This document shows, in pieces, positions 1,029-15,980 of a DNA stretch of 27,137 nucleotides; the first letter of the stretch is position 1; each line of letters starts with the position of its first letter. Origin of the DNA: a virus. Under the pieces are notes generated by a model that made no database searches, was not told the DNA's origin, and saw nothing but the letters and a program-made list of their open reading frames with translations. The position numbers and the translations under genes are program-made. The DNA lies in the IMG/VR virus record IMGVR_UViG_3300043786_000408, positions 1-27,137 of that record; one strand, 5' to 3'.

Positions 1029-1402
1029 TGAGACTCCTCCAATGGCAACACTTGCCGGCGAATGTCGTTCAACTGACTCAACACGTCCGACTGAGTGCGC
1101 TCAACCTCCACAAGCCTTGTTCGCAGGATCAGTAGTTCTGCCTGAATTTCGGCAGGAAGATCGTCGGTTTGCCATTCGGCATGGGTTGTGAAGGCACGGC
1201 GACTTGCCAGCACACTTGCCTTTGCCTTGAGAACATCGGGCACGAAGTACCACCTACGAAGACCCTTGGCGTATGGCTCCGAAGACACCGGCTTGAGTCC
1301 CAGTTCCTCAAGCCTCTGAACGTCCGACTGTCCCTTCTTGCCAGGGAAGCCCAGCATGTTGCATGCCTGGGTCTGGTTCACGAACTTGGTCTTGGGGCTC
1401 AC
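1025..1402 (-). CDS. Putative DNA-binding protein, excisionase/MerR-like N-terminus with coiled coil
   Basis: 125 residues from a GTG at 1402. I chose this start because the GTG overlaps the upstream stop as GTGA and is preceded by GGGAGG at good spacing; the frame open further upstream has no such signal. Residues 6-62 (FVNQTQACNMLGF ... DVQRLEELGLKP ... RRWYFVPDVLKA) resemble the winged-helix DNA-binding fold of excisionases and MerR-like proteins. Residues 82-125 look like a charged coiled coil that could dimerise it. Its place two genes downstream of the integrase suits a recombination directionality factor or an early regulator. Neither role is proven by sequence. Confidence 0.62.
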   Translation of the reverse strand: MSPKTKFVNQTQACNMLGFPGKKGQSDVQRLEELGLKPVSSEPYAKGLRRWYFVPDVLKAKASVLASRRAFTTHAEWQTDDLPAEIQAELLILRTRLVEVERTQSDVLSQLNDIRRQVLPLEESQ

Positions 1403-1839
1403 AGCGTCACCTCCCTGGCTCCGAGGAGTCGAGCGGCACGAGCACAGAACCGCGACCACAGGCCACAGAACCGCGACCACAGGCCGGACCTGACCCGCAT
1501 CGGTGGGTCGGCCTTGATGTCTCGCCGGTAGTCGCCTTGGCCCAGGACGGCCAGAGGCGCCTCGGCCGCCTGCTTCTTCAGTTCCTTGACCTGCTTCAAG
1601 ACCAGGGCAGTGGTCTGGGTGATCACAGCATCGGCAGCCAGCAGCACGAACCGCGGCTCGATGCGACCTGCTGGGAAGGTTTCAGCCAGGGCCCTGACCA
1701 CGTCCCCGGCGTGATGCTCGATGACCAACTCGACCTTGCGAGCGTCAAGCCCGCGGCCTTCGTTCCGCAAGTCCTGAATGGCGAGGCCCACGTCCTCGAC
1801 CACCTGCCCGAATCGTCCGACCTGTTCCTGCGTTGTCAC
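1399..1839 (-). CDS. Hypothetical protein downstream of integrase
   Basis: 146 residues from a GTG at 1839. The start is supported by a strong GAGGAG six bases upstream. The integrase frame overlaps it by 95 bases. The protein is mostly helical, acidic in the first 100 residues, with a basic, Trp/Cys/Arg-rich tail. The tail contains a perfect 7-residue repeat (GLWSRFC twice) encoded by a 21-bp tandem repeat. I do not recognise a family. The stop overlaps the GTG of the next gene, so the two are probably co-translated. Confidence 0.6.
   Translation of the reverse strand: MTTQEQVGRFGQVVEDVGLAIQDLRNEGRGLDARKVELVIEHHAGDVVRALAETFPAGRIEPRFVLLAADAVITQTTALVLKQVKELKKQAAEAPLAVLGQGDYRRDIKADPPMRVRSGLWSRFCGLWSRFCARAARLLGAREVTL
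1443..1484. repeat. Two tandem copies of a 21-bp unit
   Basis: Bases 1443-1463 and 1464-1484 are identical 21-mers beginning CACAGAACCGCG. They lie in frame inside the hypothetical gene at 1399-1839 and encode GLWSRFC twice. The unit length keeps the frame, as expected for replication slippage in a coding region. Confidence 0.9.
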
Positions 1840-3115
1840 TGGCGGCTCCTCGCTGCATCTGCAGCACGGCCAGCTCCAGCAGGAGCGTGGCCGCATGAAT
1901 CAGCCGCTCGGTCCCCACGTCGGTGGGGGTGTGGGTGCAAATCCTGTCACCCCGACTCACGAGAGGCTCGCGTCGATTGACGCGGGCCTTTTCGTTTGTC
2001 GGAGCAACAGTAACCCGCGAGCGGCCGAGAGCACGCAGAAGACCAGCCAGGTTGTTTGTGGATTCAGAGCCGTGGGGCGCTGCGACCTGGCTGGTCGTCT
2101 TGGTGCTCTCGGTGATGGTTGCGCCCATGGCCATGTCTGAATCCACGGGGAACCTATCGGCTGCACGAGGTTTTGGTCGACAACCATTTCGATATTTTTC
2201 CGATCTCTGCTCGACCGCTTCCCGCAGACGTTCCTCCCGATGACGCAAGTAGCGGTGGGTCTGGTCGATAGAGCGGTGCCGGGCCAGCCGCTGGATGAGT
2301 TCCGGGGCCACCCCAGCCTCGAAGGATTCGGTCACGAACCCCACCCTAAATCTGTGCCACTTGCCACGGCCGGTGATCCCGCACGCCTTGCAGTCGGCCT
2401 CCAGGGCCTTGTCGGTGACAATGGTGGGAAACACCAGCCCGGTGCCACGTCCTGCCAGCATCTGCCGCAGCATGCCACACGCTGCCACCGACAACGGGAT
2501 CGGGTCAGCGCGTCGGGCCTTGTCGTGGGTCACCACCATGGTGCGGGCCTGCAGGTTAATGTCCTCCCATCGCTGGGCCCGGGCCTCGCCACGTCGCAGG
2601 CCGGTCAGGCTGAGGAACCTGTACAGGTTGGCCCGGTTGGCGGCCGACGCCCGGTCGGCTGGCTTGCGTCCATCCTTGGCCATCCGTTCCGCCTGGGCGA
2701 TGAGCGCGGCCACCTGCTCGTCGGTGAACGCGTCAGCGCCCTGCCGGGTACGTCCCCTGGGCATCGGGAGCGAGGCCCATGGGTTTGCGTCCAGCACGCC
2801 CTGGACAACCATCCAGCCGCAGAACCGGCGGCACGCGCTCGCCCGGTTGCGGATGGTCTGTGGGCTCAGGGCATGACCCATCACCATGTCCCGAAGCCAC
2901 GCGACGCACGCATCAGGTGTCGCGTGTTCTCGGGAATGTTGCAGCCATGAACGGACCCACCGGGCCGCCTGCGCCGCGTGGGCAGTACTGTGTCCCTCGA
3001 CTTCGCGCGCGTAGACCTGCCAGGACTCGACCTGGTCGAGCAAGCCGGTCAACGGCCGACCCCGAGTTGCACTACCTGAATCCACGCGAAACTCTACGGT
3101 GACCCGGATCACCAT
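1745..3115 (-). CDS. int: Tyrosine integrase with long C-terminal extension
   Basis: A site-specific tyrosine recombinase for integration and excision. With ATG at 3115 it has 456 residues. A core-binding domain spans about 24-115 and the catalytic domain about 128-300. Catalytic residues are visible: Arg174 in TGLRRGE, Lys199 in HDKA, His254 and Arg257 in HRFR, His280 in LARH, and the nucleophile Tyr289 in HRYLRH. Past Tyr289 the frame stays open for about 165 residues of low-complexity, basic sequence without recognisable fold. A candidate attP core (1937-1960) and a hairpin (1964-1987) lie inside this tail, so integration would separate the last ~65 codons from the gene. The tail also overlaps the next gene. 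No good Shine-Dalgarno is seen at ATG 3115; a GTG ten codons downstream is an alternative start. Confidence 0.9.
   Translation of the reverse strand: MVIRVTVEFRVDSGSATRGRPLTGLLDQVESWQVYAREVEGHSTAHAAQAARWVRSWLQHSREHATPDACVAWLRDMVMGHALSPQTIRNRASACRRFCGWMVVQGVLDANPWASLPMPRGRTRQGADAFTDEQVAALIAQAERMAKDGRKPADRASAANRANLYRFLSLTGLRRGEARAQRWEDINLQARTMVVTHDKARRADPIPLSVAACGMLRQMLAGRGTGLVFPTIVTDKALEADCKACGITGRGKWHRFRVGFVTESFEAGVAPELIQRLARHRSIDQTHRYLRHREERLREAVEQRSEKYRNGCRPKPRAADRFPVDSDMAMGATITESTKTTSQVAAPHGSESTNNLAGLLRALGRSRVTVAPTNEKARVNRREPLVSRGDRICTHTPTDVGTERLIHAATLLLELAVLQMQRGAASDNAGTGRTIRAGGRGRGPRHSGLAERRPRA
1937..1960 (+). other. Candidate attP core: 3' end of a tRNA-Pro gene
   Basis: The plus strand reads as a T-loop (TGCAAAT, 1936-1942), the 3' half of a T-stem (CCTGT), a 7-base acceptor 3' strand CACCCCG and discriminator A. 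The G72 end (implying C1:G72) with A73 is the known hallmark of bacterial tRNA-Pro, and CCTGTCACCCCGA is a common ending of such genes. The 5' part of the tRNA is absent: the bases upstream do not form an anticodon arm with a 7-base loop, and the 5' T-stem strand pairs only by G-U. A tRNA 3' fragment beside an integrase is the usual form of attP. The crossover probably lies in ATCCTGTCACCCCGACT. Confidence 0.68.
1964..1987 (+). terminator. Rho-independent terminator directly after the tRNA 3' fragment
   Basis: GGCTCGCGTC, loop GATT, GACGCGGGCC, then TTTT. The stem has ten pairs, one of them G-U. It lies a few bases downstream of the tRNA-Pro 3' fragment, in tRNA orientation. The natural reading is that the phage carries the host tRNA terminator as part of the att identity segment, so that the tRNA stays terminated after integration. 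It falls inside the antisense integrase tail. Confidence 0.75.
3099..3112. promoter_or_regulatory. Imperfect 14-bp dyad at the integrase start
   Basis: GTGACCCGGATCAC matches its own reverse complement at 12 of 14 positions and lies directly next to the proposed integrase ATG (3113-3115). Its position would suit an operator over the integrase start. It is the only copy I found, so the call is tentative. Confidence 0.25.
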
Positions 3116-3198: not shown

Positions 3199-3381
3199 AT
3201 GAAAGCAATCCTGCTCATTCTTCTGGGAACCCTGATTGCGTTGCCGGGTCTGTTTGCGGTTGTCGCCGGTGAAGGCGGCGTGGCCGTCAAGGTCGGCGGC
3301 AGCCTTGCCATCGCAGTCGGCGTGGGTGTCTTCCTCTACGGTCTGGTCCTCAATCACAAAGACCACACGCAGAAGCGGTAG
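3199..3381 (+). CDS. Small two-helix membrane protein (60 aa)
   Basis: 60 residues starting MKAILLILLGTLIALPGLFA. Residues 3-23 and about 31-51 are hydrophobic enough to span the membrane. The C-terminus is short and charged (NHKDHTQKR). This gene and the next, two bases downstream, are the only genes on the plus strand, divergent from the integrase and convergent with the late operon. That placement fits genes expressed from the prophage, for example superinfection exclusion or membrane modification, but no family is recognised. Base composition and open frame agree with coding; there is no strong ribosome site. Confidence 0.6.
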   Translation: MKAILLILLGTLIALPGLFAVVAGEGGVAVKVGGSLAIAVGVGVFLYGLVLNHKDHTQKR

Positions 3382-3383
3382 TC

Positions 3384-3596
3384 ATGCCGACTGTCCAAGA
3401 ACCAGAGCCCGCAATGGCCAACAGCGGCCGACTGCGGCTGATTCTGCGGATCATCTCCGGAGCCTTGCTGGCAATCATCGTGCTGGCGTGGATTGTGTCC
3501 GATCCTCGTAACCGAGCGCTGCAGAGCGATGTACAGGCGTGCGGGGTGGTCATGGTGTTCGCCTTCCTGGCCACCTTCGTCAAGCGTGGCGTCTAG
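3384..3596 (+). CDS. Small two-helix membrane protein (70 aa)
   Basis: 70 residues with a polar N-terminus (about 16 residues), a first membrane segment at about 20-38 (LILRIISGALLAIIVLAWIV) and a second at about 53-66. An internal ATG at 3414 is an alternative start. It begins two bases after the upstream stop, so the two membrane proteins form an operon. Its stop codon (TAG, 3594-3596) overlaps the stop of the convergent late-operon gene in the palindrome CTAG. Function unknown; exclusion protein or holin-like are possibilities. Confidence 0.6.
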   Translation: MPTVQEPEPAMANSGRLRLILRIISGALLAIIVLAWIVSDPRNRALQSDVQACGVVMVFAFLATFVKRGV

Positions 3597-13155: not shown

Positions 13156-14481
13156 TCAGTTCTTGCCACGCAGGAATCGGAACGCGTCCGTCTGCGTGTA
13201 CTTGATGTCAACCCGGCTGGTGCAGACCATGCCGATGTTGTCCTCGTCCGCGAAGCGCTCGTTGAGCACACGCAGCGAGAACTGGCTGCGCTGTCCAATC
13301 ACGAGGAAGTCGAACGCACCGATCAGGCCGCAGATGCCGCCACCGGTGTAGCCCGTCGACGTGGTGGCCGGATCGGGCACGTAATGCGACGCGTAGATCG
13401 GAATGCCCATCACGCGGTCGGGCTCGCCCAGGACGCCGCTCGGCTGCCAGAAGTAGGTGGTTGTCGAGCTGGACAGAATCGGCGCCTGCCGGATGAACTG
13501 CAGCACCTTGTCGCTCACCAGGATCGCGCAGCTGGGGTGCTGGCGATACTGACGCGGCAGGCTGTACACGAGGTCCTGAATCTCAGCGGCAGTGATCGCC
13601 GTGTTAGCGGCCAACTGCTTGCCGACCGACGGACCCGTCGAGGCAGTCGTGGCAGACGGTCCGACCGTCAGGATGCCAGTGGGCTGTCCGGACGCGCCGG
13701 TGCCCACGAGGAAGCCCTGCTCCTCCTTCTCCGCAAAACCCTTGGCGAAGGAGTTGGTCAGGATGTTCTCCAGGCTGAAGCCCGGGCCGCGGGCGGGGGC
13801 GTCCTCGGCCAGCTCGCGGCTGACCTTGGCGAGACCCGCCAGCTTCTTGGCGTTGAGGACCACGCTGCTGAAGGTGGGGTTGGTGCTCAGCGAGTCAGTG
13901 ATTGAGCTGCCTTCCGTGGTCCAGTTGACCGAAGCCACGTTGCTCTCGATCACCAGGTCACGCTTCCATGACCCCATCGGCATGATCTGGGCGAGTTTGC
14001 GCAGGGTCACGACCTTCTGCAACTGCTCGAAGATCTTGTCGCTGAACTCGGTCGGGGCGATCACATCGCCCAGGCCCGTGCCACCCTCGCTCAGGGCGCG
14101 CTGCTCGTTCGGCCCGATCAGCTCGCCGCGGCGGAGGTAGGAGTCGAACGCATCCCGGTACTCGTCGGTATCGGCCCACGAGCCCCAGCGGGTGCCCTTG
14201 TTGGCCTTGACCGCCTTGGTCGCGGAGCGACGCTCGGGAGCGTCGGGCGACTCAACCCAGCCCAGGTTGGTGTCCTTTTGGGCCAGCTGCATGAGGCTCA
14301 CGTTCCGCTCGCGCTGCTCCTGCAGCTTGCGGTACTCGGCCTGCATCGCGTCGAAGCGCTGCGTGTCCTCGGCGCTCATGTCGCCGCCGTTCTCGTTCGC
14401 CGCGTCGATCATCGACTGCATCTCGCGGTAGAGGGCGCCCATCTTCTCGACGAGCCCTCGGTAGGTGTCCTTGTCGTTCAT
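13156..14481 (-). CDS. HK97-fold major capsid protein with N-terminal delta domain
   Basis: 441 residues, ATG at 14481 with AAGGGA upstream. Residues 1 to about 70 are a charged coiled coil (VEKMGALYREMQSMIDAAN...), the delta/scaffolding domain that the prohead protease removes in HK97-type phages. The HK97 fold runs from about 105: N-arm, the SEGGTGLGDVIAPTEFSD start, E-loop region with VNWTTEGSSIT, spine helix with KVSRELAEDA, and the P-domain and A-domain to the C-terminal ERFADEDNIGMVCTSR. It is one of two tandem paralogues; with the delta domain, this copy looks like the main shell protein. Confidence 0.92.
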   Translation of the reverse strand: MNDKDTYRGLVEKMGALYREMQSMIDAANENGGDMSAEDTQRFDAMQAEYRKLQEQRERNVSLMQLAQKDTNLGWVESPDAPERRSATKAVKANKGTRWGSWADTDEYRDAFDSYLRRGELIGPNEQRALSEGGTGLGDVIAPTEFSDKIFEQLQKVVTLRKLAQIMPMGSWKRDLVIESNVASVNWTTEGSSITDSLSTNPTFSSVVLNAKKLAGLAKVSRELAEDAPARGPGFSLENILTNSFAKGFAEKEEQGFLVGTGASGQPTGILTVGPSATTASTGPSVGKQLAANTAITAAEIQDLVYSLPRQYRQHPSCAILVSDKVLQFIRQAPILSSSTTTYFWQPSGVLGEPDRVMGIPIYASHYVPDPATTSTGYTGGGICGLIGAFDFLVIGQRSQFSLRVLNERFADEDNIGMVCTSRVDIKYTQTDAFRFLRGKN

Positions 14482-14505: not shown

Positions 14506-15756
14506 TCAGGACCGGTTTACGTTCAACACGCCTGAGGAATGGAGGAGAGCCCCGTCCGCCCGCACGCTGGCGACGAAGGCTGTGGAATCGGTGTCCGCGT
14601 ACCGCTCGCTCAGACGCGTCACGGTGAAACCCGCGAAGTTGGTCACGAGGAGGTACTTGCTCGGATCGAAGAACATCACCAGCGTGTCGCCGCTGGCTGG
14701 AGTGGTATTGCTCAGCCGGTGATAAATCGTCGGCAGGCCCTCGACCGTCGTGCCCTGCTTCATGTTGCCCATGAACACCGGGAACAGCGGCGGGTAGAAG
14801 GTCGAGTCAAACGATGCGGTGAGTCGGCTGTTGATCACCGCGACGCTGTTGATCCACTGTTCGTACGCCATGGGCGACAGCGCCGAGTTGGTCGAGGCCC
14901 ACGCACCGGCCAGGATGTCGCTGGCCTTGTTGGTGGTCGCCACGCCGGTGCTGGCCGTGCGGCTGTACGCCTTGGCGGAATTGAACGCGCCCTGACACTC
15001 GCTCGTGCCGTTGCCAATCAGGATTTGACGGTTGATCTCGGTCTTCAGTTCGCTTGCAAACTCTTGCAACAGGAACTGCTCGACGCTAGCTGCGGCGGCT
15101 GAATCCTCCAGCAGCTCGTTGCTGACGCGGGCCCAGATGTGGACCTTCTTGAGGCCAAAGGTGTAGGTCGTGCTGCCGCCGCTGCCTTGCTGCGGCAGAG
15201 CAAACTGCGTGCTGCTGGTGTACGACTCGGTGCGCAGTCCCTCAGTGCCGATCACGGCAGTAGCGGTCGCACCCGAGCCGCCGCCGCCCGAGAAACTGAC
15301 CGTCGGAGCAGACGTGTAGCCGCTGCCAGCGTTGGTCACCGCAATGCTGACCACCGCGCCGCCGCTGATCGTGGCCGTGGCCGTGGCACCCGATCCACCG
15401 CCGCCGGTAAACGCCACCGTCGGGGCCGAGGTGTAGGCGCTTCCTCCAGCGGTCACGTCGATGCGTGCTACCACGCTGGTGTTATTGATGACATCCGAGC
15501 CGACGTAGATGGGGGCAGTGAACTTCTCGGAACTCTGCACCATGCGGACGCGGCTCAGGATTGCGTCCTGCTGCATCGCCGAGTCGATGAAGTCGATCCA
15601 GCCCGTGGGGGCGACGCCGCTGCCCAGGCCGGAGCCAGACAGGCTCAGGGCTCGGGTCTCAGCATCGCTGAGGCGGTTGACGCCGTGCCTCAGGTACGTC
15701 TGGAACAGGTGGCGGTACTCGTCGCCGCCGCGGTCCAGGGTTGTCTTGGTTGCCAT
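14506..15756 (-). CDS. Second HK97-fold capsid paralogue with repeat insertion
   Basis: 416 residues, ATG at 15756 with CGGAGA seven bases upstream. It aligns with the neighbouring capsid protein throughout: [38 protein letters not shown], and [14 protein letters not shown] near the C-terminus. It differs in two ways. It has no coiled-coil delta domain. At residues about 96-170, in the region corresponding to the E-loop, it carries two repeats of about 38 residues ([19 protein letters not shown] type). It could be a second shell protein, a vertex protein or a duplicated capsid gene used as decoration. It is the first gene after the 225-bp leader. Confidence 0.85.
15241..15471. repeat. Two ~115-bp coding repeats in the second capsid gene
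   Basis: The two units (residues about 96-133 and 134-172 of the paralogue) share [19 protein letters not shown]. Each looks like a small beta domain of the GSGY...P-V-F-GGGGSGA class found as repeats in many phage structural proteins. They are similar but not identical at DNA level. Confidence 0.75.
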
Positions 15757-15980
15757 CACAGTCTCCGGGGTTATCGCCGGGACTGCGCAGCAAAATGGCG
15801 CACTGACCCGGCGGTTGTCTTCGTCGTTGACATCCGCAGTTCGAGCCAGTGCGCCACACGGGCTGCACGGAGGATCGCTCGCTCGTCAGTCAGCGTGCAC
15901 TAGGCAGGGGCTGCTGGGAGCGGAGGTATGAGTTGTCGGGTTCATTAGACCAATTCAGGAACCCGGTTCAAGGGGCAACG
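15757..15980 (-). promoter_or_regulatory. Capsid leader with candidate promoter and inverted repeat
   Basis: This 224-base stretch holds no gene and is the longest gap in the genome. On the minus strand, TTGAAC (15966-15971), 16 bases, then TCTAAT (15944-15949) form a candidate -35/-10 promoter firing into the capsid genes. Downstream, TGGCGCACTG (15796-15805) and CAGTGCGCCA (15847-15856) are perfect inverted repeats with a 41-base loop; in the transcript they would form a long-range stem before the capsid start. Confidence 0.5.

Follow-up and report, generated by a model that had tools for sequence, protein, structure and literature searches.

The tyrosine integrase gene (int) of the phage described here probably spans its own attachment site, and integration there would swap the tail of the protein, leaving different C termini on the integrase of the free phage and that of the lysogen; we give this reading a probability of about 0.7. 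Four features of the sequences carry the argument: the open int frame, a tRNA-like core within it, an in-frame tail throughout the family, and purifying selection on that tail in clade B. The window, i.e., the whole stretch of DNA that was analyzed (27,137 nucleotides; IMG/VR virus record IMGVR_UViG_3300043786_000408), has an exact 127-bp repeat at both ends and is for that reason taken to be a complete circular phage genome (~27 kb) in its nonintegrated form. It encodes capsid, portal, large terminase, tail, primase/helicase, and PDDEXK (DUF3799) proteins. Two neighboring genes (13156-14481 and 14506-15759) each match phage capsid family PF05065, and the second also holds a stretch matching structural/tail-fiber families.

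Integrase gene and candidate attachment core

The integrase (Table 1) matches PF00589 Phage_integrase (residues 131-295, E 1.4e-16), the only Pfam domain found, as well as phrog_1 (integrase) in the PHROG comparison. Tyr289 lies within an H-R-Y motif that is invariant in seven aligned sequences, and a possible alternative start is found upstream (TTG 3208). The 20-mer at 1940-1959 covers integrase codons 386 to 392, ~96 codons downstream of the catalytic Tyr289; position 1937 falls in codon 393, and the int frame continues for 64 codons past codon 392. Read on the plus strand, positions 1938-1959 correspond to the acceptor and the 3′ half of the T-arm of tRNA-Pro. A first-pass annotation of this DNA had placed a candidate attP in the 3′ portion of the integrase frame, formed by a tRNA-Pro fragment at 1937-1960 antisense to codons ~386 to 393, and this placement is correct within a base or two. 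The ~65 codons that it expected integration to remove agree with the 64 counted here, and the catalytic residues (to Tyr289), all upstream of the core, would be retained as it had stated.

Table 1. Features of the integrase region, with coordinates in the window
Feature	Coordinates	Strand	Evidence
Tyrosine integrase frame, free-phage form, 456 codons	1745..3115	-	ORF list, Pfam
Catalytic domain, residues 131-295, includes Tyr289	2231..2725	-	PF00589 and invariant motif
Linker, about residues 300-385, doubling as DNA arm between int domain and core	1961..2218	-	AF2, dN/dS
GTGGATTCA repeat at int start	3077..3085	-	Exact copy
GTGGATTCA repeat, candidate arm-type site	2138..2146	-	Exact copy; alignment of seven phages
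GTGGATTCA repeat, candidate arm-type site	2058..2066	+	Exact copy; conserved in seven aligned phages
Inverted repeat 2025-2052 / 2085-2112, 28 nt, 89% complementary	2025..2112	.	Repeat scan
Strong hairpin adjoining core	1959..1994	+	z -4.0 for 1880-2000
tRNA-Pro 3′ end, candidate attP core, antisense to int codons 386-393	1938..1959	+	Core searches, codon mapping
G at T55 position of T-loop; int strand TGC (Cys), TTCAAAT tRNAs would give TGA	1937..1937	+	9/9 clade-A records
Coding tail past core, residues 394-425, predicted helix 401-426	1840..1936	-	Alignments, dN/dS, AF2
End of int frame, overlapping start of next gene in another frame	1745..1839	-	Int-frame dN/dS 1.28, clade A
Gene X, GTG start 1839, AGGAG-like site inside tail	1399..1839	-	ORF, alignment

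The 20-mer is present at 63 GTDB-species genome loci, nearly all of them 3′ ends of tRNA-Pro-type genes. These loci share at most 2 further identical bases with the phage on either side of the 20-mer, and no further common flank was found at any of the 63. The identical core and 3′ flank recur beside the same integrase in six other virus contigs, so the core is not a chance match. It would be at this core, within the int frame and past the catalytic tyrosine, that recombination takes place.

Exact copies of GTGGATTCA occur at three places only in the whole genome, all in the int region, and two of them lie between the domain and the core; the 28-nt inverted repeat and the hairpin adjoining the core make up the rest of this arm. 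The stem of the hairpin adjoining the core varies on both sides among relatives; a terminator reading of this hairpin was dropped because the terminator scan did not call it. An RNA-family reading of 1700-2300 was also rejected, the Rfam matches lying far under gathering scores. At the two edges of the region, a 15-bp unit (1447-1476) is present in two copies in this phage versus one in its relative L004, and two small plus-strand frames with hydrophobic stretches (3199-3596) lie immediately upstream of int, oriented against the main genes.

An AF2 model built with 22 sequences gave a folded recombinase with a low-confidence linker (pLDDT <50 for residues 304-404). The tail of this phage was modeled as the helix listed in Table 1 (pLDDT 57-68 in the first two blocks of ten), and that of the clade-B record L132 as a helical hairpin (helices 401-417 and 421-441; pLDDT 68-77 per block). 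The clade-B tail is predicted to fold as a helical hairpin, at the moderate confidence of both tail models (per-block pLDDT mostly 57-77). In a fold search with the full model, the best PDB matches were tyrosine recombinases, with TM scores by query of 0.23-0.33 among the matches listed; a search with the tail alone gave no match.

The start of the gene varies among relatives. Near the int N terminus, L111/L004 (94% integrase identity between L004 and this phage) has indels of 2 and 6 nt relative to this phage, possibly a frameshift in this relative. In clade-B int genes (L126, L130, L132, L133, L135, and L154), a run of 12-33 C residues (poly-C) lies close to the gene start, with a palindrome after it, and poly-C near the int start is also present in L120, L121, L127, L129, and L134. 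With respect to the run, an upstream ATG is in frame in L132 and L154 (C14) and out of frame in L126, L130, L133, and L135. It is possible that the run makes the clade-B integrase phase-variable, but long homopolymers are prone to assembly error.

Reading frame across the core in the family

A search with the alignment of this phage and the six core-sharing contigs as the query returned 46 loci, six of which are the same contigs as those of the earlier core/flank search. Together, this phage and the 37 loci in which a script recognized the core make up 38 evaluable records; excluded were contigs ending before the core (L117, L118, L119, and L124), loci with a core variant unmatched by the strings used (L143, L145, and L149), and cut records (L152 and L153). 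In this phage and the six contigs that share its core and flanks, the integrase frame is open through the core. Of the evaluable records, 37 of 38 keep this frame free of stops across the core and for 90 nt or more beyond; in the other two frames, none of the 38 stays open that far (frame +1 passes the core itself in 6). The sole exception, L123, has a short deletion that puts a stop ahead of the core. The int frame is open in the three core variants too, as it is in seven further contigs found by core pattern. An integrase ending before the core, an outcome that the first-pass annotation had weighed against its own proposal, is therefore not what these 37 records and seven further contigs contain.

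The contigs of L117, L118, L119, and L124 end a few to some tens of bases short of the core. Contig ends just before the core would be expected if assembly branched at attP/attL.

Four core classes were found at this position: A (tRNA-Pro, CACCCCGA), to which this phage belongs, B (AGCGCC[CT]A), C (ACCGCCCA), and D (tRNA-Pro type, CAGCCCGA). Relative to the tRNA, the core is read in three frames; B1 and B2 use two of them on nearly the same core, the third being that of A, C, and D. In every class, the peptide past the core continues the integrase frame, and A and B share ...ERLLxAAxxL...QQGA. For the frame to be preserved across these core phases, length changes on one side of the core must be offset on the other, and in seven aligned clade-A records the indels between the domain and the start of gene X are multiples of three. 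Comparison of the family confirms that the placement of the candidate attP within int is real and family-wide and no accident of annotation.

Selection on the tail and alternative explanations

In clade B (17 records, 16 distinct), the tail before gene X has a dN/dS of 0.25 in the int frame versus 1.58 and 1.73 in frames +1 and +2, with p1/p2/p3 values of 0.159/0.150/0.366. By group, the int-frame dN/dS of the tail is 0.15 in B2, 0.40 in B1, and 0.06 in clade D (few changes). By these measures, the clade-B tail is real coding sequence under purifying selection. In clade A, the clade of this phage, tail dN/dS is 0.73 in nine records and 0.54 in six close records, and linker dN/dS is 0.73-0.74, the linker having few changes relative to L004; domain dN/dS covers clades A and B1 only. 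Selection on the tail thus appears weak in clade A, and for this phage taken by itself the case for the tail comes from its relatives. The comparison with L004, in which third-position changes make up 88 of 120 in the domain, a pattern absent between the domain and the core, at first suggested constraint on the DNA only; the wider family decided otherwise. Past the start of gene X, which has no Pfam or PHROG match at E 0.01, int-frame dN/dS rises above 1 (1.28 in clade A), as expected if the X frame governs there. L114 and L115 have identical linkers and tails that differ but are helical in the same manner, a pattern that a swap of the tail by recombination would produce.

A tail with a role of its own is not the only way to account for the open frame. 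Under translational coupling, the frame would bring int ribosomes to the start of gene X inside the tail, the peptide itself would be idle, and integration would uncouple X. The position of the X start and its AGGAG-like site inside the tail, with the int frame continuing past them, fits such coupling, as does the evolution of the region past that start in the X frame. However, coupling does not need the amino acid conservation, with many silent changes, of the clade-B tail (dN/dS 0.25), and we consider an idle peptide unlikely; coupling and a role of the tail peptide are compatible and may coexist.

The possibility that GC-rich DNA merely happens to leave the frame open, with the attP DNA rather than the peptide being conserved, has some points in its favor, considering that antisense tRNA ends often read open, that the DNA of linker and core varies little, and that linker and tail dN/dS in clade A is only 0.5-0.7. 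Against it, the other frames close within 90 nt past the core in all 38 records, the int frame is kept across three core phases, and the wrong-frame dN/dS in clade B exceeds 1.5, so that for the family, as judged from the alignments, chance is strongly disfavored and we regard it as very improbable. The tail could also be a separate small protein made from an internal start in the linker, its continuity with int being incidental. A Met codon (ATG) is indeed conserved in the linker in the clade A and B alignments, but clade D is without such a Met, no clear ribosome-binding site was seen by eye, and the int frame upstream of the ATG is likewise open in 37/38; hardly any likelihood is left to this explanation.

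Modeled junctions and proposed switch

Because the sense strand of the tRNA is the plus strand and int lies to the right, the int frame at attL would run out of the phage arm, across the core, and on into the host tRNA in antisense. Junctions were modeled with 63 tRNA contexts taken from GTDB-species loci. With TTCAAAT tRNAs (36 of the 63 contexts), the modeled integrase is 392 aa long and ends in ...EPLVSRGDRI-stop; with TTCGAAT tRNAs (27 of 63), it is usually 404 aa long, i.e., it acquires a ~12-residue antisense-tRNA peptide. The earlier expectation that the host tRNA region would provide a new C terminus thus holds in the model for the latter contexts, and in the former it gives way to a probably immediate TGA.

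The codon after ATT in the phage is TGC in 9/9 clade-A records and TGT/TGC in 14/14 clade-D records, where a TTCAAAT tRNA gives TGA; the free phage escapes this stop because its base at the T55 position (G, versus T55 in the tRNA T-loop) differs. In unrelated contigs with the clade-D string, GTTC, the T-loop form, is present at that place in 10/12, and in clades B and C, where the frame or base 57 is unable to give a stop, T55 is unchanged. The T55 pattern comes from a handful of independent lineages only and could alternatively mark the edge of the exchanged core. We tentatively suggest, at somewhat less than even odds, a self-reporting integrase, in a widespread phage family, in which the changed T-loop base would serve only to keep the frame open and the conserved T-loop of the host would supply the stop, converting a tailed into a tail-less protein.

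Under our preferred reading, in which int spans its own attachment site, the circular phage would make a protein consisting of the catalytic domain, a long linker whose DNA would form the attP arms, the antisense tRNA 3′ end, and a conserved helical tail. Recombination at the tRNA gene of the host would cut the tail off from int, and the lysogen integrase would end at the core (TTCAAAT tRNA, clade A) or in a usually short antisense-tRNA peptide; excision would give the tail back. Since the tail would be lost on integration and restored by excision, the C terminus would report the integration state. By analogy with phage Mx8, the most likely effect would be a lower or altered integrase activity in the lysogen, stabilizing integration. 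For this phage, we infer both integration at this core and every effect on activity.

An integrase whose form depends on the integration state would be a simple directionality control. That the attP-in-int arrangement is kept despite a changed site or frame suggests a built-in switch like that of Mx8. With several tRNA targets and an arrangement kept under selection, the family may offer a natural series of tails, cores, and frames for testing tail function, and the same series bears on how a phage could switch target without losing the switch.

Prophage searches and distant relatives

No prophage of this phage family was found in genome searches covering 1265 genomes in all, and integrase peptides scanned against genome contigs gave no match. 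Searches with the family integrase alignment recovered none in 246 Actinomycetota genomes, none at 1e-28 in 397 genomes of a further class, and only G036 again in three small classes (4, 2, and 17 genomes). The clade-B core was found in 0/199 Planctomycetota. Of 392 Planctomycetota genomes, five had matches to the family integrase alignment with E<=1e-25, all distant relatives, and Planctomycetota as host is only a weak lead. In four of the distant planctomycete relatives (L164, L165, L166, and L169), which lie beside tRNA genes, the int frame enters an antisense tRNA. Their sequences resemble those of integrated elements in which the integrase end derives from a tRNA; they were rejected as prophages of this phage family, being too distant, and the far ends of the elements were not found on their contigs.

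Among known phages, integrase identity was <30% in the matches listed at E<=1e-5, and a looser search gave only weak ones among the matches listed; plasmids yielded three weak matches. The literature within our reach, which takes in few of the subscription papers, described neither this phage family nor a stop supplied by a host tRNA.

Comparison with known systems

The first-pass annotation had offered SSV-type viruses as a precedent. In these, as described in PMC8371274, the split integrase gene yields two parts, Int(N) and Int(C), of which Int(C) carries the catalytic domain. The att site (a candidate site in our case) lies inside the integrase gene in both, but the integrase described here keeps its catalytic domain whole: no split of an N-terminal part from that domain occurs, the core lying well past Tyr289, and Phage_integr_3 (PF16795, as named in that source for the SSV type) is absent, PF00589 being the only match. 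Mx8 is closer, since the SSV split parts the catalytic domain from the N-terminal part.

In the mycobacteriophages BPs and Brujita, attP lies in the repressor gene, the tail that integration removes is an ssrA-like tag, and the phages are described as lacking arm-type sites (PMC9934374, PMC9635641). They resemble our phage in having attP within a phage gene (a candidate attP in our case) and a protein tail removed by integration (modeled in our case). They differ in that the gene crossed here is int and not the repressor gene, that arm-like repeats are present, and that the tail end is not ssrA-like; by inspection, tails ending in ...RRPRA, ...LREDR, ...MGAGR, and ...RRCDPST carry no ssrA-like degradation tag. 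Streptococcal ICEs in rumA are described as having att inside the cognate integrase gene and another C terminus after excision (PMC4701971). The site (a candidate site in our case) is in the cognate integrase gene in both; theirs is a serine integrase with a non-tRNA target.

For Mx8, attP is reported inside int (primary paper of 1996, as cited in PMC6070905), and integration is reported to exchange 112 C-terminal residues for 13, with changed activity (PMC6070905, PMC4701971). Mx9 likewise has attP in int according to review, and an att site inside the cognate integrase gene is described as known in very few elements, with Mx8 as an example (PMC4701971). In our check of the Mx8 sequence, a tRNA-like end falls within the int frame, at residues 415-420 of 533, with the tyrosine at Tyr354. 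Mx8 and this phage are alike in having a tyrosine integrase, a tRNA 3′ end antisense in frame past the catalytic Tyr in the 3′ portion of int (attP in Mx8, candidate attP in our phage), and a long C-terminal tail, exchanged on integration in Mx8 and in the junction model for our phage. The two proteins do not appear to be close kin in sequence: their likeness is remote (BLASTP 29% over 112 aa, E 0.004 in a single comparison), with the tails unaligned. Our phage belongs to a whole family of uncultured phages with four core classes, three frames, and, in the A/D frame, what would be a host-supplied stop. By analogy, Mx8 is the best precedent, and the family most likely works as it does; what appears to be new relative to Mx8, as read from these genomes, is an Mx8-type switch that is family-wide and uses several tRNA cores.
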